This document shows, piece by piece, positions 38,060-50,115 of a stretch of DNA of 64,000 nt. The position numbers and the translations under genes were made by a program. Source of the DNA: Geothrix fuzhouensis (lineage in GTDB: Bacteria > Acidobacteriota > Holophagae > Holophagales > Holophagaceae). The stretch covers positions 744,001-808,000 of the forward strand of contig NZ_JANHMQ010000001.1 of the NCBI RefSeq assembly GCF_024609325.1. The letters run 5' to 3'. The notes under the pieces were generated by a model. That model was not told where the DNA came from, searched no databases, and saw only the letters and a list, made by a program, of their open reading frames with translations. Position 1 is the stretch's first letter; every line of letters starts with the position of its first letter.

Positions 38060-38854
38060 ATGACGCGCCAACGAACGTCCAGTTCCCTGGTTCTGTTGCT
38101 GCTGGCAGGTCTGGCCCTGCCCGCCTCCGCCCAGCACGAGCGGCGGGAGGAAGGCCCCCGACCTGAGCGTCCCCGGGAGGGTCGCGCCCCCGAGCGAGGC
38201 CCTGAACGAGGCCGAGAACAACCTTCGCCCATGAGGGCTACACCTCAAGCGCCTCGCCCCACGAGGGACATGGAGCGAGCCCGCCCCATCCCTGGGCCCG
38301 AACGCCAGGCGCGGCCGGAACGACAGGAGCGGCCGGGCCGATCCGAAGGGCGCATGGAACCAAGACCGCAGCGCGGAACCATGCGTTCCCCCTCGAACCG
38401 GGAACCCTCCCGCCCGCAGGGGCGAATGGCTCGCCCCTCGCCGCGTGCGGCTGAGACGGCCCGCGCCTGGCAGTCCCGGGACACCTGGCGCCGCGACGCC
38501 TGGCCGGCCCATTCCAGCTGGCGGGAACATCGCGCCCAGCACTGGGAGCGCGACCACCGGACCTGGGCCCAGCGCGGAGGCTATGGCGGCTACCGCATTC
38601 CCGAGCCGCAGTTCGTTTCCCACTTCGGCTACGCGCATCCCTTCCGGCTCGGCAGCCGTCCCGTGATCTATCAGGGCTATCCCCGGTTCAGGTGCGGAGG
38701 CTACTGGTTCCTCATGGTGGATCCCTGGCCGGAGTTTTGGGTGGATGACTGGTACCTGACCGATGAGGTGTACGTCGACTACTACGGGGATGGCTACTAC
38801 CTGGTCAACCCCCGCTATCCGGGCATCCGCGTCGCGATCACGGTCTTCCTGTAA
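38060..38854 (+). CDS. Secreted Arg/Pro/Glu-rich protein with aromatic C-terminal domain
   Basis: 264 residues. A signal peptide (LVLLLLAGLALPASAQ) is followed by about 115 low-complexity residues rich in Arg, Pro, Glu and Gly, almost certainly disordered. The last 110 residues are rich in Trp, Tyr and Asp (RGGYGGYRIPEPQF, MVDPWPEFWVDDWYL, YVDYYGDGYYLVNPRYPG), a pattern seen in small periplasmic proteins of unknown role. A strong AAAGGAGG precedes the ATG. Its 3' end overlaps by 17 bases with the convergent GIY-YIG gene. No enzymatic motif was found. Confidence 0.75.
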   Translation: MTRQRTSSSLVLLLLAGLALPASAQHERREEGPRPERPREGRAPERGPERGREQPSPMRATPQAPRPTRDMERARPIPGPERQARPERQERPGRSEGRMEPRPQRGTMRSPSNREPSRPQGRMARPSPRAAETARAWQSRDTWRRDAWPAHSSWREHRAQHWERDHRTWAQRGGYGGYRIPEPQFVSHFGYAHPFRLGSRPVIYQGYPRFRCGGYWFLMVDPWPEFWVDDWYLTDEVYVDYYGDGYYLVNPRYPGIRVAITVFL

Positions 38855-39098
38855 CGGCGGCACTGATCAATGCCTCCTTGGCCGGGCGCTTCAGTCGCTT
38901 GAGAGCACGCTCCCGCCTGAGCGCCTCGGCCTTCGAGCCGCAGACTTCGCGATAGACCAGTTCCAGGGGCCCTCGGCCCCGGGTGTACTTGGCGCCCTTG
39001 CCTGCCTGATGCAGGTTCAGCCGAGCCTCCACATCGAGGGCGATGCCGCAGTAGAGCGTGCCATCGGCGCAGCGGAGCAGGTACACCCACCACGTCAT
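38838..39098 (-). CDS. GIY-YIG nuclease-domain protein (UPF0213/YhbQ-like)
   Basis: 86 residues, a minimal GIY-YIG domain: WWVYLLRCADGTLYCGIALDVEARLNLHQAGKGAKYTRGRGPLEL with the paired Tyr and Gly motifs, the Arg of EARL and the Glu-containing REVCGSKAEALRRERALKRL helix. Such small proteins resemble E. coli YhbQ. The ATG overlaps the SpoIID-domain gene stop by ATGA, so it is the last cistron of the alpha-2-macroglobulin cluster. Its link with that envelope system is unclear and may be only transcriptional. Confidence 0.88.
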   Translation of the reverse strand: MTWWVYLLRCADGTLYCGIALDVEARLNLHQAGKGAKYTRGRGPLELVYREVCGSKAEALRRERALKRLKRPAKEALISAAVTGRP

Positions 39099-40570
39099 GG
39101 TGTCCGCCAGGACGCAGGGAATGCTTCGGCCAGAATCTGCTCCGCGGTAGCGCCCTGGGCCGCGCTGAAACGGGCCGTGGCGAGGCAGAGACCCACATTG
39201 TGGCCCCAGCCGTGTCCGCGCAGCCGCAGCGTTCCATCGGACTGGACCTCGGCTTCGCAGGCGTTGCTGGGCCAAGTGGTCCAGCCGAAGCGCCGCCCAG
39301 CGGCCAGGCGCAGATCCTCGACGGCATAGGGCCCAGAGCCCCCCAGGCGCAGGCCCCGCTGGCCCGGCTTCAGACCTGGGCGCACATCCCCCTTCAGCGC
39401 GGCAACGTCGGTGGCACTGAGCGTGCGTTCCCACATCAGCCAACGATCGCCTGGAACCTCCGCAGCCCCGCCAGGGCGTTCGGGTCCCTCACCCCAGACC
39501 TCGCGAGGACTGAGGGAGCGGCCTCCGGCTGAGCCGGTGAAGAAAGCCCAGCGGGAATCCAGATCCAGGCGGGGAGCCGCAGCCGCGGCGCGGACCGTGC
39601 CGGCCGAGGCGCTACCCCGCACCACCGCGCAGTGAGTCAGGGGACAGAGGACACCACCCGGATGCTGGTGGCGATGGCCCTCCAGCCACCGTCCGAGTAC
39701 CGCCGCCAGGGCCCGCCTCGCCTCGATGGGCGCCTCCACGCCAAGTTCTCCTTCCGTGGCGGCGGCGATCCAGGCGGCCCTGGAAGCCGTCCAGGCAAGA
39801 CGCCACCCGTGTGGCTTCGCATCGACCTGCACCCCGCCGTCCAGGCTCTGGATGGGGAAGCCCGGCCCGAACCGCACCTGCCCGCGGAATCGCCAGTGCT
39901 TTCCGGAACGATGAGACAATAATTGTCCATTCACGGTGAGCGGTCCCCGGAGCCTTTCGGCGGGCCAGACCACGGTGATGGTTTCCGCCAAATTGACTGC
40001 CTCCTTGGTCCACCCATCGGCCTCGGCGCGCCGCCCCTTCGGCGCCTCCGGCCATGGCTCGTGTCGCAGCCACGCCCTCAGCCAGCGGTAGGCCCAGGCC
40101 TGCTCGCGGGTGCCGCCGCCGGTCAGGGCTCGATCGAGGTGCGCCTGAACCCCGGCCAAGGGAGAGACAGGCCAGGCCTTCGGCGGACTGGGATGGCTCT
40201 CCGCCCACAGGCACCGGGCCTCCTCCCTCCAGCGGCGCAGCCCGGCGCTCCGCAAGCGCCGGTGCGTCAGTTCATGCCGGAGGATCGCGCCCAGCTCCCG
40301 CCGCCGCAGCTGATCCCAGGGTCGCAGATGCAGCGTATCGCCCACCCACTGGCCACTGCGCGCCATCGGAGCTCCGGTGGCCCGCTCGAAGGCCGTTGCA
40401 TCGGGATGAATGATCACGCGCCATGGGCCCGCGGGCCAGGGTCCGAAGGCCGCGGAAGCTGTGAAGGCCGAGCGCAAAGCTTCCTCGACCGCTCCCTGGG
40501 CTGCTTCATCACCTTCGATCACGGGTGGCATGAAGGGCGGCGCAGGGACTGGAGCGAGCAGGACGATCAA
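39095..40570 (-). CDS. HExxH peptidase-like domain fused to SpoIID/LytB-like domain (YfaQ-like part)
   Basis: 491 residues from a TTG start that overlaps the upstream stop (TTGA). Residues 90-125 read LGAILRHELTHRRL then RRWREEARCLWAE: an HExxH zinc helix (99-103) and a downstream EE, the pattern of MA-type metallopeptidases. The C-terminal half ends GHGWGHNVGLCLATARFSAAQGATAEQILAEAFP, the SpoIID/LytB signature, as found in amidase enhancers and peptidoglycan-acting proteins. The combination suggests work on the cell wall. The N-terminus has only a short hydrophobic stretch. The proposed correspondence to part of E. coli YfaQ (DUF2300) is by position and not proven. Confidence 0.65.
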   Translation of the reverse strand: MIVLLAPVPAPPFMPPVIEGDEAAQGAVEEALRSAFTASAAFGPWPAGPWRVIIHPDATAFERATGAPMARSGQWVGDTLHLRPWDQLRRRELGAILRHELTHRRLRSAGLRRWREEARCLWAESHPSPPKAWPVSPLAGVQAHLDRALTGGGTREQAWAYRWLRAWLRHEPWPEAPKGRRAEADGWTKEAVNLAETITVVWPAERLRGPLTVNGQLLSHRSGKHWRFRGQVRFGPGFPIQSLDGGVQVDAKPHGWRLAWTASRAAWIAAATEGELGVEAPIEARRALAAVLGRWLEGHRHQHPGGVLCPLTHCAVVRGSASAGTVRAAAAAPRLDLDSRWAFFTGSAGGRSLSPREVWGEGPERPGGAAEVPGDRWLMWERTLSATDVAALKGDVRPGLKPGQRGLRLGGSGPYAVEDLRLAAGRRFGWTTWPSNACEAEVQSDGTLRLRGHGWGHNVGLCLATARFSAAQGATAEQILAEAFPASWRTP

Positions 40571-41397
40571 GGCTTCAGTCCCAGAATCTCCCGGACGCGT
40601 GCCATGCCTTCCTGCTTGCCACGGCCTCGCGGAAGGTGGAGCACCACCAGGACGGATCCGCGCCCGCCCGCCACCCAGGCGCTGGTGGCGGCGGGATCCC
40701 CTGGCACCGGGCCGGTGCCCGTCTTGAACCACCAGCCCTCCTTGCCGAACAGGTCCATGAATTCCACCCAATAGCCCGCCAGGTAGCGCTTCCCGAAAGT
40801 GACCACCTCCGCCTGGTCCGGTTGCATGAGCCACCGGAGAAAGGCCTCGGGGCTAGTCCGTAGCAGGTCCCCATCACCCACCCAGGCCGGTGTCAGGGGC
40901 GGCAGCCCTTCCCCCGGGGGGAGGCGCCGGCCCAGGAAGGGCCCGAAGACCTCCTCGAGGCGGGCCCGGGCCGCATCGGGTCCGTAGTCCTGCAGCCACT
41001 GTTCTCGGGATCCTGCGATCCAGGCCAGGAAGGCCAGGTTGCAGCTCTCCTGGAGGGCCCGGCCCAGATCCACCCGGCCGTGGCCTTCACGGTTCCAACA
41101 GACGAAGGCCCCGTCGGACCCTTTGCAGCGGTACTGGACTCCGGAGCTGGACCACGCCGCTCCTTCCAGCCGCATCCAGACCAGCTTGGCGAGGCTGCCC
41201 ATGGGGGCCTCCTTCCGGGCCTCACCGTAGGCCCGCACCTCGCCGTCCCCCAGGGTGATGGCGAAGCCTTCACCAGGCTGGAGGATCGGCGCCCGCGAAG
41301 CCGCCACCACGGCAGGGCTGGGCGCGGCTTCCGGTGTCGGTTGGGCCGTCAGCAGCCGGAAGGCCAGGAGGACTACGGCCAATCTAAGGTTCCACAT
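40567..41397 (-). CDS. Penicillin-binding/class D beta-lactamase-like serine transpeptidase domain protein
   Basis: 276 residues with an N-terminal signal (LRLAVVLLAFRLLTAQ). The serine acyltransferase triads are all present: SLAK (68-71), SCN (118-120, ALQESCNLAFL) and KTGTG (225-229, WWFKTGTG), with the C-W...HGRVDLGRAL context of transpeptidases. It is therefore a small periplasmic PBP-like or beta-lactamase-like enzyme. No glycosyltransferase or dimerisation part is seen. It overlaps the YfaP-like gene by 14 bases and the SpoIID gene by 4. A role in sensing or remodelling peptidoglycan alongside alpha-2-macroglobulin is inferred from context. Confidence 0.75.
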   Translation of the reverse strand: MWNLRLAVVLLAFRLLTAQPTPEAAPSPAVVAASRAPILQPGEGFAITLGDGEVRAYGEARKEAPMGSLAKLVWMRLEGAAWSSSGVQYRCKGSDGAFVCWNREGHGRVDLGRALQESCNLAFLAWIAGSREQWLQDYGPDAARARLEEVFGPFLGRRLPPGEGLPPLTPAWVGDGDLLRTSPEAFLRWLMQPDQAEVVTFGKRYLAGYWVEFMDLFGKEGWWFKTGTGPVPGDPAATSAWVAGGRGSVLVVLHLPRGRGKQEGMARVREILGLKP

Positions 41398-42244
41398 CGA
41401 AGGTCCCCAGAGTGACAGGTCCGGCGCCCGGCAGGATCAGGCGTTCCCAGGTCCAGCGGCGCTCCTGGTCGGTGCCCCCATCCAGCAGGGCCTCGACCCG
41501 GATGCGGCCCGGCTTGCCGCCCCGCCAGCCGCTGGTCCATTTCAGGGTGTAGGTGCCGGGAGGCGGGGTCTCATGGGTGTATTCGCCGGACCAGCGCAAC
41601 ATGCCACCGGAGGGCGTCCGGCGGCCCCCTTCGGCCAGGGCCCCATCGGGTTCCTGTACCTGGAGACTCCCGCCGGTGTACTCGTCATTGGCCTGGATGG
41701 TAACCACCCGCAGCCGGGTTCGTGCCGTCGACACCCACCAGCTCCGGACCACCCGCAGACCCGAATCCGGCTCCAGGATCTCCAGGCGGTTCTCGCCGTT
41801 CTGGGCTGTGAGTTCCGTGTGGAGCGTGGCGCCCACATTGGCGTGCCAGCGCAACGTCGCGCCGTTGAACCACACCTGCAGAGTACGGGACCGCCAGGCG
41901 TTGCGGGCCGCCTCCGCTTCCCGCGCCTGCCGTTCCTGCCGCAGCTGGTCGGCCGTGCGAGTGTCTTCGGGGGGCGGTGCGTCATCGCCCTCGTCCTCGT
42001 CATTGAAGAACCGCGGTTGCGCCTCGTCCTTGGGCGGGTTGGGATCTTTCGGATCCACAAGCTTGATCCGCAGGCTCACCGTGCGATCACTGGACCAACC
42101 GCCCAGGGCCGGCGCTACCTCCAGACGCCACTGCTTCAGGTCAGGGACATAGGCAGCCAGGACGGGGACCTTCGGCGCCCGTGCCTTCTGGGCGCCCAGG
42201 ACGGAGGCCACCAGTAGGAGACCCAGAACCAGCCGCCGCTTCAT
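41384..42244 (-). CDS. Secreted YfaP-like protein (DUF2135-type)
   Basis: 286 residues. A signal peptide (MKRRLVLGLLLVASVLGAQ) precedes a beta-rich protein with an acidic Asp/Glu/Pro insertion (about 80-112). The C-terminus, GTYTLKWTSGWRGGKPGRIRVEALLDGG, resembles DUF2135 of E. coli YfaP, which is encoded in the same kind of neighbourhood. The ATG overlaps the alpha-2-macroglobulin stop by ATGA. Likely an exported beta-sandwich accessory; its action is unknown. Confidence 0.7.
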   Translation of the reverse strand: MKRRLVLGLLLVASVLGAQKARAPKVPVLAAYVPDLKQWRLEVAPALGGWSSDRTVSLRIKLVDPKDPNPPKDEAQPRFFNDEDEGDDAPPPEDTRTADQLRQERQAREAEAARNAWRSRTLQVWFNGATLRWHANVGATLHTELTAQNGENRLEILEPDSGLRVVRSWWVSTARTRLRVVTIQANDEYTGGSLQVQEPDGALAEGGRRTPSGGMLRWSGEYTHETPPPGTYTLKWTSGWRGGKPGRIRVEALLDGGTDQERRWTWERLILPGAGPVTLGTFDVEP

Positions 42245-45200
42245 CGCGCACCTCCGTCCAGCACCTTCAGGTCCGCCCCATCGCAGGTGGCCCACTGCCC
42301 TTCATTCGACATGAGGCTAACCTTGGCGGGGCGGAGCCGGTAGCTGCCCCCCATGCCCGCCCGCAGGAGGATCCGGACTGTGTGAGTGTTCCAGCTCCAG
42401 GCGTGCTGAAAGAGGAAGGTCACCTTGTCTCCGTGGACTTCCACGCGGGGCTTCATCCAGGTGTCTGACGCTCCTTCCTCCGTATAAGGCTTTCCTTCGA
42501 GGACGAAGCCCTCCAGCTTCACCGTGGGGTTGAGACCACCGGGAATGGGCACCTCCAGCATCACGTAGTCCGCATCGCGATCTGTCCGGAAGGTCACCTG
42601 CATCCAGGCTTCCTCGCCGGCCTTCATCGTCCCAGTCCATGGTTGGCGGATCCAGCCCTGGCGGGCATTCCCGGTTTCCTGAGGGGTCTTCAGGCGCCAG
42701 AGGTTCCGCGTCACCGACAAGCGCAGGGCGGACGAGACATCCCCTTTCGGCGTGCCGGCGGCGCTGCCCGGGACCTGGTAGGCGTAGGTCCACACCAGCA
42801 GGCCTTTGCCGTTGGCCGTGATGGTGACGGGTTTCGGTTCCGCCATGGCGAAGCTGCCGGCACGGGGCTCGCGGGCGTTCCAGCGACGGGCCTGGGGCCG
42901 CTCCTTGAACTCCCAAGAGGGGCCGCCCTGCACCGCCGCCTGGATGGCCAGCGGCCCCCAGTCCAGCTTCCGGGCCTTCATGAGGTAGGGCAGCAGGTCC
43001 ACGATCTGGCCCGTGCTCCAGGTGGAGTACCACCCGTAGCCACGGTACTCGGAAGCCAGGAAGGTCTCACCCTGCCGGATCAGTGGCGACTGGGGGCGCG
43101 CCAGACACAGCGCCTTCAGCGCCATCACCGTGGGCACCACATCGCCCGAGGCATAGCTCCACCAGACTTCCCGGCGGCCTTCCCAGCGGGCCAGACCGCC
43201 CTTCACCACGACCCGCTGCTCCAGTCGCTCGATCAGGGCAGTGGTCTTGGGATGCTTGGCCTGGGCCGCGGCCAGGGCCACCATGGCCAGCACGTGATCG
43301 CCGGACCACTGGCCCCGCAGCACCTTGTCCGCCGCGCTATCCAGCAAGCCCGCCAGGGGTTCGCCGGTCTGGGCCAGGGACATCAGCAGGAAGGCTGCGT
43401 CTGCCTGGGGGTCCGCCGATTGTCCATGGCTGGCCCGCTGGCGCTGGGCCGGGGTCGCCTGGTCCGCCTGTCGGGCCACCTGCTGGAAGAGGCTCATGGC
43501 GGCCATGCGGCCCCGGCGGTAGACGCCCTCATCCACGGCATAACCCAGACGCTTCATGGTGGCGAAGCTCTGGATGGCGTAGCCGGTGGTGTGCGGATTC
43601 GCATCCAGGCCGAAGTCGTTGGGCGCGTACCAGCCCCAGCCGCCGTTGGGCTGCTGGTAGCCGTAGACCTTGAACACTCCGTCGCGGATGTTGCGGTCCA
43701 GGTTGGTGAGCTGCTTCCAGTCGAGGTCCGGCATGGCGCCCTGTTTCACCAGGTCCGCCACCAGCAGGTTCGGCACGAAGCTCGACAGCGTCTGCTCCAC
43801 ACAACCGTAGGGGTACCCGATCAGGTAGGGCAGCGAGGGCGCGGCCAGATGCTCCAGGTTGCCCACGGGCGTGAGTACCAGCGTGGCGTCGCCCTTGGCG
43901 GCCGGAGGCGCCGGGATGGTGAGGGTCTGGGACCCGCCATCCAGCACCAGGGAACCCGACAACGAGGCAGGCACCAGCTGATCCAGCACGGTGACTTTCT
44001 GCCGTTCGGCATCCTTCAGGCTGCCACCTTCCACCCGGGCCGTGACAGTAAGCGGGCCCGTCTTATCGGAGAACAGCGGCAAGGCGAAGCGGTACTCACC
44101 TTGGTCCTGGAGATTGAAGCTGGCCTCGGGCGCGCCCGAGAACCGGCCGTTCTGAACGTCCAGACGGATCTTCCCCTGAATGGGCTGACCCGAGAGGTTG
44201 CGCACCAGGGCGATGGCCCGGGCCTCCTCTCCCACACTTAGCGTGCGTGGCAGGGTGAGGGCCACCTGCAGCGGCTTGGAGGCTGGCCTCGAACTGCGAC
44301 CCACCCCCACCTTGGTATCGCCGGTGATGGCCGTGGCCGTGGCCCGCCAGGCCGTGAGGTTGTCCGGCAGCACCAGGTCCACACTGGCCTTCCCGTCACG
44401 GCCAGCGGCCACGAAGGGCACCCAGTGGGCCGTGTCCTTGAAGTTCTGGCGCACCTTGTCGTCGTCATCAGCCTTGAAGTCGCCGCGCTTGGTCTGCTTG
44501 AGGCTCCAGACGGGGCGCTGACGGCGCAGCAGATCGTGGAAGCTCCAGTCCGTGGAGCCCGACCGCAGCACGCCGTGGCGGCGCGTGGGGTGGAAGAAGC
44601 GCACGGGATCCGGATGCAGTTCCTGGCTCAAGGCGTAGATGGCCTCATCCACCACGCCCACACTGAGGTCCGCGGCGGAGGGCCGACCGGAGGCATCCTT
44701 CACCTCCACGGAGACCTTCATGGGCTGGCCAGGCTGGTAGCGCTCCTTGTCCGTGGTCACAGCCACCGACAAGCGCCGGTCCCTCTTCGGCACGCGGATG
44801 GGAACTTCCACCATCTGGCGGCGGCCTTCGGCCACGATCTCGAAGACGGCCCAGACATTGGGCTGCATGGCGGCCGTGATGGGGACCTCCACCAGGGCGG
44901 TAGTGCCCGCTACAGTGCGGCTCTGGTGTTGGCCAAGGCTTTCATGCTCGATGGCCCAGTGAAGGGTCAGCTTCGGCCGGGGCAGCTGGACCAGGACGCG
45001 CGCCGTGTCACCGGGCTGGTACTCGGGTTTGTCTGCGGCGGCACGGAGGTCCGGTACCGCCGGCAGGGGCGTGCCTTCGGCGGCCACGGTGATCTGGCGC
45101 TGGGCCGTGACAGAGCGCCCCTTCGAATCCCTGGCCTCGGCCACCAGCAGGAAGGCGCCACCTTCGGGAATGGTCAGCATGGCCTGCGGCCCTTGGGCCG

Positions 45201-46998
45201 AGGCCACGGTCTCGCCGGGCTTCAGGGCATTGGGACGGGACCACCAGTACGCGTTGTCCTTCTGCGCCACAATGCGGGCAGCCCGCAGCGCGATGGCCAC
45301 GCCCGGAACTTCCTTGCCGTCCAGGTCGAGCGCGCGGGCCGTCACCTGGAAGGGCTTGCCGGGGAGGGCCACCTGGCGGTCCGCGGCGATCATCAGCACC
45401 AGGTCGCCCGCGGCGGCGCGCACCTGGGCCTGGCCGCTGTTGCGCTGGCCCGACGCATCGGCCACCTTCACCACCATGCGCCAGAGGCCGTCGCTCTCGG
45501 CCTTGAAGGTGGGCAGATCTGCCTGGCCTTCATCGTCCAGTTCGAGCTGGCCGCTTTCCATTAATTCGGGCGCGGGACCGGCATCTTCGTCATCCCAGAT
45601 CCAGCGGGACTTGGGCGGGACGACCTTGTAGAGGAACCAGTCCGCCTTGGCGCCGCGCACGGCCGCGCCGTAGAAATAGCGGGCGTTCGCGTGGAAGACC
45701 AGCGCATCGCCCAGACCCACCTTGGTCTTCTCTGTGGTGACCTTCACTTCGAAGGCGGGCTTCACGAACTGCTCGACCTTGAATTCGGCCTGGCCAGGGC
45801 CCTGGGGCCCCTGGAACACCAGGCGATAGAGGCCCAGGCGGCCCGCGCCGGGCAGGGTGAACTGGGCCGCATAGGTGCCGGTCTCGGCGTTCAGCAGTTT
45901 GGCCTGGCCCTCGGTCACCTTCGTATCCTCGGGGTCCAGGACCGTGAAAGGCAGGCTTGCCGACCCACTGTCCACGCGGTTCTCGCCGTCCTCCACCCGC
46001 CGCAGGATGCCCTTGGCGAAGACCTCCTGGCCGGGGCGATAGAGCGGCCGTTCCGTGAAGGCGTAGAGGCGCTGGCGCACGGCGGCCGCGCTCTGCCCTT
46101 CGCTGGCGAGGAGGGCGAAGCTCGCGCCGCTGCGCGCCATGACCACGCGGCGAACGCCAGGGGTCACAGCGGCTTCAACTTTGCCGACGCCGTCGAAGAC
46201 CAGGGGCTGGCGCTTGCCCCCTTCGATGATCTGACCGGAGACGCCGGCTTTCGGCGCACCATCGCGCCCATCCACGGCCTGCACGCGGAGCTTCGCCCCG
46301 TCCTGCTCTGAAAGCAGGGCCAGGTCCGTGACCATCCAGGGAACGTAGGCGGCGGTACTGCCCCGCAACACCTCCACCAGGTAGAGACCCGCCGCCTGGG
46401 CGGGCAGCTGCACGCGGCTGGTGAAGCCGTCGTCACCCGATTCATCGTCCTCGTGCCCCTTCTTCCCGGCGATGTCCTCGCTGACCTTGGGCACGACCTC
46501 GGTCACGAAGGTGATGCCGGGCTGGCCTTCCAGGGGAAGGGCGGAGCCCTCCCGCACCGGTGCCGACGGGGTCTTCGCGGATGTCAGGCGGTCCGCCTGC
46601 TTGGCGGCATCCCGCAGGCCCTGGGTAGCCGTGCGATGCACTGTCACAAAGGCCCGGCGGCCACCCCAGAGCACCGCCTCCCGCAGGACATCCAGGGGAT
46701 CCTGGGCGGCGCGTCCGCCCTCGGCGGCGGCCGCGCCACGGTCCAACAGCACCTTCTTCAAGAAGGCTTCCGGTTCCTCCACACGGTAGAGGCGGATGCG
46801 CGCTTCGGTGGGAATGGGGCCCGCCGCCTCCAGCAGGCCCGGCTTCCCGGGCAGGGTGGGGCGCAGGGTGGCGAAGGCGCCGGTCCAGCCGCCCTCCCGC
46901 CAGGGGGCTTCGGCGGCCCGTTTCTGAGCCGAACCCGTGGTGGGCAAGAGCAGAACGGTGGGCAGGAGCAGTGTGAGGAACGGGCGAAGCCAGCGCAT
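42241..46998 (-). CDS. Bacterial alpha-2-macroglobulin with thioester motif (YfaS-like)
   Basis: 1585 residues. A signal peptide (MRWLRPFLTLLLPTVLLLPTTGSAQ) without a lipobox points to a soluble or loosely bound periplasmic protein. MG-type beta-sandwich segments include YAFTERPLYRPGQEVFAKGILRR, YQPGDTARVLVQLP and VSVEVKDASGRPSAADLSVGVVDEAIYAL. Cys1066 in GYPYGCVEQTLSSF begins the CxEQ thioester motif, followed by alpha/alpha-toroid repeats (FKVYGYQQPNGGWGWYAPNDFGLDANPHTTGYA). Alpha-2-macroglobulins trap proteases after bait cleavage. The neighbours (YfaP-, YfaT-, YfaA-like) are those of E. coli yfaS, but E. coli YfaS is thought to lack the thioester. The start at 46998 was set by the signal peptide and 1-base spacing to the upstream stop. 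Confidence 0.9.
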   Translation of the reverse strand: MRWLRPFLTLLLPTVLLLPTTGSAQKRAAEAPWREGGWTGAFATLRPTLPGKPGLLEAAGPIPTEARIRLYRVEEPEAFLKKVLLDRGAAAAEGGRAAQDPLDVLREAVLWGGRRAFVTVHRTATQGLRDAAKQADRLTSAKTPSAPVREGSALPLEGQPGITFVTEVVPKVSEDIAGKKGHEDDESGDDGFTSRVQLPAQAAGLYLVEVLRGSTAAYVPWMVTDLALLSEQDGAKLRVQAVDGRDGAPKAGVSGQIIEGGKRQPLVFDGVGKVEAAVTPGVRRVVMARSGASFALLASEGQSAAAVRQRLYAFTERPLYRPGQEVFAKGILRRVEDGENRVDSGSASLPFTVLDPEDTKVTEGQAKLLNAETGTYAAQFTLPGAGRLGLYRLVFQGPQGPGQAEFKVEQFVKPAFEVKVTTEKTKVGLGDALVFHANARYFYGAAVRGAKADWFLYKVVPPKSRWIWDDEDAGPAPELMESGQLELDDEGQADLPTFKAESDGLWRMVVKVADASGQRNSGQAQVRAAAGDLVLMIAADRQVALPGKPFQVTARALDLDGKEVPGVAIALRAARIVAQKDNAYWWSRPNALKPGETVASAQGPQAMLTIPEGGAFLLVAEARDSKGRSVTAQRQITVAAEGTPLPAVPDLRAAADKPEYQPGDTARVLVQLPRPKLTLHWAIEHESLGQHQSRTVAGTTALVEVPITAAMQPNVWAVFEIVAEGRRQMVEVPIRVPKRDRRLSVAVTTDKERYQPGQPMKVSVEVKDASGRPSAADLSVGVVDEAIYALSQELHPDPVRFFHPTRRHGVLRSGSTDWSFHDLLRRQRPVWSLKQTKRGDFKADDDDKVRQNFKDTAHWVPFVAAGRDGKASVDLVLPDNLTAWRATATAITGDTKVGVGRSSRPASKPLQVALTLPRTLSVGEEARAIALVRNLSGQPIQGKIRLDVQNGRFSGAPEASFNLQDQGEYRFALPLFSDKTGPLTVTARVEGGSLKDAERQKVTVLDQLVPASLSGSLVLDGGSQTLTIPAPPAAKGDATLVLTPVGNLEHLAAPSLPYLIGYPYGCVEQTLSSFVPNLLVADLVKQGAMPDLDWKQLTNLDRNIRDGVFKVYGYQQPNGGWGWYAPNDFGLDANPHTTGYAIQSFATMKRLGYAVDEGVYRRGRMAAMSLFQQVARQADQATPAQRQRASHGQSADPQADAAFLLMSLAQTGEPLAGLLDSAADKVLRGQWSGDHVLAMVALAAAQAKHPKTTALIERLEQRVVVKGGLARWEGRREVWWSYASGDVVPTVMALKALCLARPQSPLIRQGETFLASEYRGYGWYSTWSTGQIVDLLPYLMKARKLDWGPLAIQAAVQGGPSWEFKERPQARRWNAREPRAGSFAMAEPKPVTITANGKGLLVWTYAYQVPGSAAGTPKGDVSSALRLSVTRNLWRLKTPQETGNARQGWIRQPWTGTMKAGEEAWMQVTFRTDRDADYVMLEVPIPGGLNPTVKLEGFVLEGKPYTEEGASDTWMKPRVEVHGDKVTFLFQHAWSWNTHTVRILLRAGMGGSYRLRPAKVSLMSNEGQWATCDGADLKVLDGGAR

Positions 46999-46999
46999 G

Positions 47000-47947
47000 T
47001 CAGGACCTGGGAAGGGAAGCGGATTCGGAAGGCTCGTCCGCCAGCAGGCGCCAGCGGTAGAGCCCCAGGAAGGCCGGATTTTCAGGGAGGGGGCGGAAGT
47101 CGGGCTCAGGGTGGTGCAGCAGGTCGTCGAGGCGGACGCGGCGGATCTCGCCGGGCTGACGAGAGGCGCCACTGCCTTCGGGCCCCGTGTGGTAGAGCAG
47201 CATAGGCGTGCCGTCCACGTCGGGACGCACGAAAGCCATGGCGTGGTCGGGTTGGGCTCGGGCACCCCCCCGGGCGAAGAAGATCAGGTCGCCAGGGTGG
47301 GCAAGGGCCAGGTCCCGACCCAAGGACACGCAAGCCAGGCGGCGGAGGAAGGCGCCCTTGGCGAAGGGCCGAGGCCCCTCAGGAGTGGGAAAGCCGCTTC
47401 GCCAATCCGCCACAAAAGCCGACGAGGGATCCTGCCCCGGGGATCCCGCAGTGAAGGCCACCCGCTCCCGCCAGGCCACCGTGTGCGGAGCCAGGGCCTC
47501 GCGGAAGGCGAAGCGGAGCAGGCCCGCGCAGTCCCTCTGGGCCGGCTCCCAGGCGGGACTGGGGCCTTCGAGCTGCTGCTCAAGGATGGCCACGAACCAG
47601 GTCTGGAAGGCTTCGCGGTCGCCCACATCCGAAAGGGCGTTCGCAGATCGCGCTGCATGAAATGGAATGGACAAAGACTGTCGGAAATTGGGCCAGGCCG
47701 TGACCAACGCCACGGCCGGCCCCTCAGAGGACAGGAAGAAGCCCCCCGCCCCCCGCCAAGCCGGAACCCCTTCCACCTTCACGCCCCAGCCGGGCCGCCG
47801 AAGACCCAACAGCGAGCGGCTGTCCACCCGGATGTGCACCACGGGGTTGGCCGGATCCGCCTCCAGGACCGCCCGGTGCCGGATCGGCACCAGGAGGGCC
47901 GCGGCGGCCAGGACGGCGCCTCCGGCCAGAAGGTGACGGAGGTTCAT
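47000..47947 (-). CDS. YfaT-like protein (DUF1175, NlpC/P60-type cysteine peptidase fold)
   Basis: 315 residues. An N-terminal hydrophobic segment ([18 protein letters not shown]) directs it to the envelope. Cys140 in [28 protein letters not shown] and His235 in PDHAMAFV mark a papain/NlpC-like fold, the layout of DUF1175 (E. coli YfaT). It might cut peptides in peptidoglycan, or bind them. The ATG at 47947 overlaps the YfaA-like stop (ATGA). It is directly followed by the alpha-2-macroglobulin after one base, in the same order as in E. coli. Confidence 0.8.
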
Positions 47948-50115
47948 CGGGGCCGCCCCTCCAGGCCACCCGCGGTCCAGTTCCATTCAATCCGGACAGA
48001 TCCCAGTCCCTTCAGGGCGCCCAGGAAGGGGCCCAGGCTGGAGGCCAGCTCTGTGGCAGCCTCGTCCTCGCTGGCGGTCTCGGTCTCGCCAATCCACCAG
48101 CCGCTGCCGGTGCGGCTGCGGAGGAAGGCCAGCAGCAGGTTCTCCAGTTCCTTCGAGGCACGGGTTCCGTCGATTTCCATGCGGGCCCAGGCCCGGGAAT
48201 CGCGGTCCGCCAGCGTCGGGGCCTGGCCCAGGAGCCCCGCGGCCACAGCCTTCACCGCCGCATCGTCGGTACCCAGCACCAAGGTGTCGGCCACCAGGGT
48301 CCAGGCAGGGCGGAACGCCTGGGCCGTCATCACCCGGTGCAGTTCCGTGGTGCCCAAGGCCTGTTTCTGGTTCTGCCCCTTGAAGAGGCGCGGCAGCACC
48401 TTCTTCATCAGGTTCTCCACTTGAGCCCGCTTGGCGCCCTGGATGGGCAACGCCAAGGCCAGGCTGGGTGTCATGCCCGGCTCGCCGAAGCCCCCGAAGG
48501 CTGTCACTTTGCCGTCCCGCTGGGCCTGCATGGCCCGCCAGGGGTCCTCCCGCCGGAGTTTGGCGAGTTCCATCAGTGACGCTTTTTCGACGGACCCCAG
48601 CGGCGGTGCGGTCACCCAGCCGTTCCAGAACAGGGCCGCCCCCCGCAGGTCCAAACAGGCCTGCAAAGCCGCCGCATCCTGGCGCAGGCCGGTCCGCTGG
48701 CGCTGGCGTTCCTGGGCCGCTGCCAGGGCATCCTGGTAACCCTTCATCTGAGACGGGGTCAGCGCCTGGCCACCATTGGCGAAGTCAGGCATGCGGGGCA
48801 GCTCCAGGTCGCTACCGTCATCCACCCGAAGCATGGCCTCCACCAGCTTCTCCGTGGGCCCAGCCCCCAGGGAGACTGCCAAGGCACCGGTGAGGGGTGC
48901 GGCTTTCGCCACGAAGGGGTTGGACCAGGCGCCCTGCTGGACGTTGGCCAGGCGGCGACGGAGGGCCTGGGTCTCGAAGGCCGCTCCCGCGCCAATGCGG
49001 GGGGCCAGCCAGAAGGACAGGTCCGTATCCGGCGCCATGGCCGACAAGGCGACGCGGGCCCACTCCTGGCGTTCGTCCAGGGACGGCAGCGGACCCGGGA
49101 ACAGCAAGGCCCGCAGGGGAGCTTCCCGGTCGCTGATCCAGGTACCTTCCGCTCTCTGGATCAGGTGGAAGACACCCCCGGACCCCCTCAGCTGCTGGAC
49201 TTCCGTAGATGCGCCAGGGCCTGTCCATTTGACGATCCGGGCCCGCGCGCCCGCGCTCAAAGGATTCAGCTTGAGCAAAGCCATCACGAGCTGCGTGCGG
49301 GCGGGCAGATCACCGGGGATGAACACCAGGGTGCCCCGGAGGGCCTCTGCGCTCGCGCGGTCCACCCCGTAGTGCAGCAGCCAGGCCTCGCGGTTGGCGA
49401 GCGGCTCCAGGGCCGGGGAGACCTGCTTCAGCCAAGGCTCCAGATGCCTCACGGCGAAGCCGGCCCGGCTGCCCTGGGCCAGGGCGGGAAGGATGCCGCT
49501 GGCAGGGGCACCGGAGGCGGAGTCGGTGCCCCCGCTGAGGGCCGCCAGTTTTTCGAGCCCTGGCCGCAGCTGCTTCAGGTGGATGAGCACGCCAGGCTGG
49601 GCGGCCTGGCCCAGGCCTCTCGGGAGGGCGGCGGTGCCAGTCTGCGTGAACAATGCCGGGCTGGGGATCCACTGGAAGCGCCAGCCTCCCTTATCCAGGT
49701 GCAGGCCCAGCCCATGGGTCCAGGGACGATCCACCCGGTCGGGGGCGCCCAGGTAGGCGTAGGGATCGGCACCGGACTGGCGGTAGCCGAGCCGATAGAG
49801 AAAGAGGGCCACCTCCGGATCGCGGGTCTTCAGGGCCTCCTCGGCCCACTCGGACAGGGTGCGCTGGCCGAGGAAGGCCAGGGCCACCCGCCGCGACTCG
49901 CCGTTTTGCTTCAGATGCTCCATCAGCTCGCCCGCCTGCTCATTCGGGGTCATCTCATCGAAAGGGATCGCCTTCCAGACGCGCTGGCCCTGCAGGTTCG
50001 TGCGGTAGATCGACCAGTGTTGGGCGCGCTCCTGCGCCCAGACCGGCACCTGTGCCGGGGCCGCTCCCGCGACCAGGATCGCCAGTACGCACAGACCCTG
50101 CGCGAGTCGCCTCAT
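47944..50115 (-). CDS. YfaA-like secreted protein (DUF2138-type)
   Basis: 723 residues with a signal peptide ([22 protein letters not shown]). Stretches such as [56 protein letters not shown] and [19 protein letters not shown], together with its position first in the cluster, point to DUF2138 (E. coli YfaA, about 560 residues). It is longer than that protein. No catalytic motif is recognised. It is the promoter-proximal gene of the cluster, with a sigma-70-like promoter upstream and a divergent hutI beyond it. The start at 50115 follows a G-rich ribosome-binding stretch and begins the signal peptide. Confidence 0.65.

Follow-up and report, generated by a model that had tools for sequence, protein, structure and literature searches.

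A mag/yfa-type alpha-2-macroglobulin operon with an intact thioester and recognisable wall enzymes in Geothrix fuzhouensis, probably an envelope-defence complex

What does an alpha-2-macroglobulin (A2M) do when it is encoded in a tight run of genes whose products resemble cell wall enzymes, and how does such a locus relate to the mag operon of P. aeruginosa and the yfa operon of E. coli? The question is raised by a stretch of 64,000 nucleotides from Geothrix fuzhouensis (assembly GCF_024609325.1, 3.3 Mb; contig NZ_JANHMQ010000001.1, positions 744,001 to 808,000), hereafter the window, in which seven minus-strand open reading frames (g1 to g7) follow each other in tandem from position 50115 to position 38838. 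A preliminary description, made from the letters of the window, had taken all seven as one A2M cluster extending the yfa layout. Our analysis retains an A2M operon of the yfa/mag kind, in which DUF1175, A2M, DUF2135 and YfaQ-like parts can be identified, and finds that g1–g6 are one system. We consider it probable (roughly 0.6) that these six genes encode a mag/yfa-type envelope-defence complex that bears a thioester and is catalytically complete. The points of interest are the thioester in a mag-type A2M and the domain reading of YfaQ/MagE.

The A2M itself provides the first part of the answer. As had been proposed, g3 is a YfaS-like gene: its product carries A2M Pfam domains and, in a quick maximum-likelihood tree, which contains several long branches and sequences of uneven composition but none from Pseudomonas, it groups with YfaS and not with YfhM, the mag-type and Type I (YfhM-like) proteins lying on either side of one branch with support 100. 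The preliminary description did not mention that the thioester of g3 is intact (YPYGCVEQTLS, that is, CxEQ within GCVEQT). Indeed, in our alignment CxEQ is present in 93/97 near-complete mag-type A2Ms from several phyla (94/98 if YfhM is included; the known duplicate L020/L090 was left out). The loci compared here came from a scan seeded by DUF1175 and from genome samples, with Gammaproteobacteria represented by E. coli and Citrobacter only, plus the literature. The four sequences that lack the motif are those of E. coli (two records), Citrobacter and one member of the Myxococcota. In the tree, the E. coli and Citrobacter A2Ms group with that of locus L183, which keeps the thioester, and on the simplest reading the enterobacterial branch would have lost the thioester secondarily. 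L183, whose host was drawn from the phylum of genome G153, has the E. coli gene order (DUF2138, DUF1175, A2M, YfaQ-like, two DUF2135; L183:854-11507). Its A2M carries the thioester (YPWGCVEQTAS) and its YfaQ motifs are already degraded; it appears to be an intermediate.

Type II A2Ms have been defined by the absence of CxEQ together with a six-gene operon (PMC5764988). Judging from the aligned loci, the one does not accompany the other outside the enterobacterial branch. Because the published CxEQ-less definition fits that branch and not the wider group, we would file the operon of g3 as a variant of the mag/yfa operon kind rather than call g3 a Type II A2M under that definition. We found no report of thioester-bearing mag-type A2Ms, or of the nature of YfaQ as a penicillin-binding protein (PBP) joined to SpoIID, in the open literature searched, to which the 2004 survey, the 2013 MagD paper and other subscription papers do not belong.

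The second part of the answer lies in g5 and g6, which the preliminary description had seen as a PBP-like serine gene and an HExxH/SpoIID fusion, seemingly a YfaQ-like part split in two; all three assignments held. The g5 product carries transpeptidase motifs only, was collected by a PBP profile and gives a weak PBP2 match (5.6e-6), and its homologues match Pfam Transpeptidase with values up to 7.8e-45. In g6, HELTH followed by REEA represents an HExxH motif with a downstream Glu, putatively of the gluzincin type; this part has only weak Pfam matches, in homologues. The SpoIID part of g6 contains the Glu, THC and GHG motifs and matches NCBIfam SpoIID_LytB at E 0.0018, below the curated cut-off, as compared with 9.1e-55 in a homologue, and homologues match Pfam SpoIID with values up to 6.6e-23. 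The model of a fused homologue (L090; mean predicted local distance difference test score, pLDDT, 83.9) matches SpoIID 5i1t and PBP structures, and no match to the HExxH domain was among the matches listed in this fold search. Elsewhere the three domains occur as PBP-SpoIID-HExxH (24), HExxH-PBP-SpoIID (7) or PBP-HExxH-SpoIID (1) fusions, or else as smaller pieces or separate genes. Their motifs are near-invariant outside the enterobacterial type (SxN in 71/71, the SpoIID Glu in 70/70 and HExxH in 76/78 aligned sequences); the alignment of g6 with SpoIID fragments is mis-registered, and the HExxH columns alone were used from it.

A profile built from three YfaQ-type proteins aligns collinearly with the PBP and SpoIID parts of the fused PBP-SpoIID-HExxH proteins (hhalign 97.9%, E 3.6e-13), and E. 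coli YfaQ matches Pfam SpoIID above its cut-off. The C-terminal HEYLH of YfaQ is common to the fused proteins by motif and position only. The E. coli protein keeps the first Ser/Lys pair, has SCG in place of SxN and KTW in place of KTG, and has lost the SpoIID THC. We read YfaQ, from these similarities, as a PBP-type transpeptidase followed by SpoIID and HExxH parts, partly degraded in E. coli, with g5 apparently corresponding to its N-terminal part. The YfaQ/MagE-like (DUF2300) member of the operon is thus recognised through a profile link and not by Pfam DUF2300. The stop of g5 and the start of g6 overlap as TTGA, or TGATG in L024, and such an overlap was seen in 6/6 aligned congeners. A programmed frameshift between the two genes, an idea suggested by their fusion in G097, was ruled out, the overlap explaining the junction in all aligned congeners.

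The remaining partners agree with the same operon kind. The DUF1175 family profile of g2 matches P. aeruginosa MagC (7bk8) at E 2e-66, and every sequence covering the relevant columns of the alignment keeps the Cys-His-His residues; MagC is described as NlpC/P60-like and as interacting with peptidoglycan (FEBS Lett 2021, as cited in PMC10318531). The g4 product has no direct match in Pfam, and a profile seeded from Myxococcota DUF2135 proteins gathers both g4 and E. coli YfaP, with a profile comparison (hhalign) of 100%. The YfaT-like and YfaP-like genes of the preliminary description are thereby confirmed. Its YfaA-like gene is not: g1 has no match in Pfam, and hhalign gave 0.7% and 0.5% against YfaA/DUF2138, values beneath which homology too remote for these tools may remain. 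Identity with YfaA was rejected on these profile tests. A hidden Markov model of the g1 family matches proteins of Myxococcota mag-type operons (L073, L084, L165-L167) with E values of 1e-39 to 1e-55, so that g1 appears to represent a family different from YfaA that is also found in Myxococcota. An AlphaFold model of g1, made from three sequences, had a mean pLDDT of 39.7 and was not used. In sum, of the profile similarities proposed earlier, DUF1175 was recovered by Pfam, DUF2135, DUF2300 and SpoIID through profile links or homologues, and DUF2138 was missing.

Table 1. Features of the macroglobulin locus in the window
Feature	Position	Strand	Reading	Support
g1	47944..50115	-	723 aa, secreted, at yfaA position	profile searches
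g2	47000..47947	-	YfaT/MagC-like DUF1175, NlpC/P60-like, Cys-His-His	Pfam 5e-41
g3	42241..46998	-	YfaS/MagD-type alpha-2-macroglobulin	Pfam MG2, A2M_BRD, A2M, TED, bMG10
Thioester motif YPYGCVEQTL in g3	43786..43815	-		computed from residue index; alignment
g4	41384..42244	-	divergent YfaP/MagF-like DUF2135	Myxococcota-seeded profile, hhalign 100%
g5	40567..41397	-	276 aa, PBP/serine-transpeptidase fold	SLAK, SCN, KTGT = SxxK, SxN, KTG in order
g6	39095..40570	-	HExxH (HELTH) then SpoIID domain (THC, GHGWGH)	TTG start overlaps g5 stop
g7	38838..39098	-	single-domain GIY-YIG, 86 aa	Pfam 9.1e-19

The seven genes do overlap or nearly abut on one strand, as first described: from the coordinates, the junctions are -4 (g1/g2), +1 (g2/g3), -4 (g3/g4), -14 (g4/g5), -4 (g5/g6) and -4 (g6/g7) nt. 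The congeners read have the same gene order as the window, so the comparison with relatives came out in favour of the preliminary description, and the grouping is therefore not due to chance. Across the wider sample, DUF1175 adjoins A2M on one strand in 110/118 loci, and all three enzyme domains occur in the stretch in 60/97 loci with a near-complete A2M. A promoter scan of the operon region gave no sigma-70-like match, a result of little weight in this phylum. Of the seven-gene cluster, g1–g6 belong together; the GIY-YIG gene g7 was ruled out as an operon member and is a passenger, since it is kept in congeners without the operon and is unlinked in G097. The 3′ ends of g7 and of a convergent plus-strand gene (38060-38854) overlap by 17 nt (38838-38854). 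The earlier count of six exported products appears likely overall by inspection alone: judged by eye, the N-termini of g1–g5 are signal-peptide-like or membrane-anchor sequences, that of g3 (MRWLRPFLTLLLPTVLLLPTTGSAQKR) being a Sec-type signal with no lipobox cysteine, and g6 has in the window just a short hydrophobic start (MIVLLAPVPAPPF). In L025 the g6 homologue is fused behind an exported transpeptidase domain.

Variants of the locus were met in other lineages. The place of YfaP after the A2M is taken in many Acidobacteriota by a polytopic membrane protein of about 240-290 aa (L017:13728-14564, L020:8038-8748, L053:7939-8745). In several Myxococcota loci (L169-L175), DUF2135 and DUF1175 genes lie upstream of a gap of about 1-1.6 kb, followed by the A2M and a HExxH-PBP-SpoIID fusion. 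Two loci carry a Ser/Thr-kinase-like gene, possibly a regulator, between the YfaP and transpeptidase genes (L073:16801-18309, L084:12761-14410).

A third line of evidence comes from the distribution of these genes within the genus, where the A2M is present in 23/47 genomes and the g5 transpeptidase gene in 46/47. In all 23 A2M-positive genomes the SxxK, SxN and K(T/S)G motifs are intact (KSG in one), whereas in 22/22 readable A2M-negative genomes at least one motif of g5 is broken, in several different ways. Some A2M-negative genomes are fragmented. A plain Fisher test, which ignores descent and counts the KSG genome as broken, gives p 6e-12. On the best gene tree all five changes go in the same direction. 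The covariation is suggestive only, because the independent events are few. Four A2M-less genomes read directly have the arrangement hutI - g5 - GIY-YIG - rpe, without g1–g4 and g6. The orphan, motif-broken g5 genes beside GIY-YIG (L212, L213, L214, L215) stay open, with a pairwise ratio of non-synonymous to synonymous substitution rates (dN/dS) of about 0.1-0.2 and thus under apparent purifying selection, which gives them the look of pseudoenzymes that are being maintained and not of debris. As DUF1175 is present in several genera of the family, loss of the operon is favoured over its gain.

How might such a complex work? The A2M would be exported to the periplasm and present its bait region; cleavage of the bait would expose the CVEQ thioester and lead to covalent capture of the attacking enzyme. 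Docking of the complex to peptidoglycan may be the task of the DUF1175 protein, and local remodelling or resealing of the wall that of the transpeptidase and SpoIID parts. For the HExxH enzyme, processing or priming of the A2M would be the most likely role; wall proteins or the captured enzyme might be alternative substrates. We infer the location, complex formation, capture chemistry, wall repair and role of the metallopeptidase, and favour a periplasmic trap with wall-remodelling enzymes because of the protein families and of the work on Mag. MagD traps a protease and forms complexes with MagA, MagB and MagF (PMC5764988), and magD protects against the wall-attacking type VI secretion system effectors VgrG3 and Tae1 (PMC12663445). 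The most likely function would be the trapping of incoming hydrolases together with peptidoglycan maintenance in the periplasm, and the protease trap linked to wall repair that was suggested at the outset would still be the best inference for the operon.

Several observations weigh against this interpretation. DUF1175 has been called inactive (PMC10318531). Many Acidobacteriota are without g1- and g4-like genes and their enzyme genes are often convergent; given these convergent genes and the membrane protein in the YfaP place, the six-gene form is not universal. About five changes on the best gene tree underlie the covariation, and well-supported branches force two of these; with so few events a sign test does not reach significance. 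Finally, since the orphan g5 genes remain open at the low dN/dS given above, the transpeptidase protein also has a use without the A2M.

One alternative is compatible with an envelope-defence complex and concerns the metallopeptidase: HExxH may be a dedicated activator of the A2M, acting loosely as the convertase does on complement C3, with firing by an internal signal. This proposal, which we regard as tentative, is consistent with the Deinococcota loci read, where DUF1175, A2M and HExxH only were found, HExxH being the sole enzyme domain of the three, and with E. coli YfaQ, in which HEYLH is preserved alongside degraded motifs of the transpeptidase and SpoIID parts. In P. aeruginosa, MagD processing is altered in magB, magC and magE deletions, and a larger form of MagD remains when magE is deleted (PMC5764988); however, the magE effect has been interpreted in print as a matter of signal-peptide processing or chaperoning. 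It seems unlikely, on the other hand, that the operon serves mainly housekeeping peptidoglycan maturation, with the A2M as a scaffold or wall-stress sensor whose thioester attaches to wall or membrane components. In its favour, three of the six products are wall enzymes or look like them (NlpC/P60-like, transpeptidase, SpoIID); against it, the A2M is patchy in the genus, at 21/41 genomes in one of the sets compared, magD mutants of P. aeruginosa show attack-related phenotypes and MagD traps protease, as cited above. A chance neighbourhood of unrelated secreted genes, of which the GIY-YIG gene is an actual example, is highly improbable given the order conserved in congeners, the core shared across phyla, the domain fusions and the motif-A2M covariation, which refute it for g2, g3, g5 and g6 and less strongly for g1 and g4, limited as these are to some lineages.

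We see about even odds that the mag-type system began as a periplasmic immune complex, armed with a thioester and catalytically complete, that had an activating metallopeptidase, a transpeptidase and a lytic transglycosylase of its own. The E. coli form and, by its published description, the Pseudomonas form would then be reduced, thioester-less descendants, and YfaQ, and probably MagE, would be a decayed wall enzyme in which a metallopeptidase motif survives. Were this true, the division into Type I and Type II by the thioester would not be natural; the data suggest that the well-studied E. coli/Pseudomonas version is the stripped-down one. Type II macroglobulins have been described as thioester-less, with partners that are mostly unexplained, whereas the form in the window has a thioester and recognisable intact enzymes, which makes the function of MagE/YfaQ and of the complex as a whole directly testable. 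A concrete prediction is that the HExxH enzyme of the operon may process the macroglobulin.

Among known systems, P. aeruginosa magABCDEF resembles the window in that DUF1175 (MagC) adjoins a periplasmic A2M in a multi-gene operon of mostly exported products. It differs in that MagD is without CxEQ (PMC5764988), which g3 has, and in that g1 shows no detected relation to DUF2138; MagD, MagE and MagF were matched to genes of the window by position and from the literature. The E. coli operon yfaA-yfaT-yfaS-yfaQ-yfaP, likewise on one strand, shares homologues of YfaT, YfaS and YfaP and, by profile, of YfaQ. However, E. coli YfaS has GGVIN for GCxEQ and is a pseudogene in K-12, and the order is S-Q-P with a single-gene YfaQ, as compared with S, P, PBP and HExxH/SpoIID in the window. 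Type I A2Ms (E. coli YfhM/ECAM with PBP1c) share a CxEQ A2M beside a transpeptidase-fold protein, but they occupy the separate tree branch already noted, have PBP1c as neighbour and lack DUF1175. The adjacent PBP1c has a glycosyltransferase domain, which the small g5 product does not, and Type I lipoprotein anchoring does not apply to g3, judged by eye from its N-terminus; a search with YfhM gave no match in the source genome at E 0.001. Lastly, g6 shares with the SpoIID/LytB lytic transglycosylases the Glu, THC and GHG motifs, and the model of its homologue matches 5i1t, but it differs from them in that its SpoIID domain follows an HExxH domain and is encoded beside an A2M.

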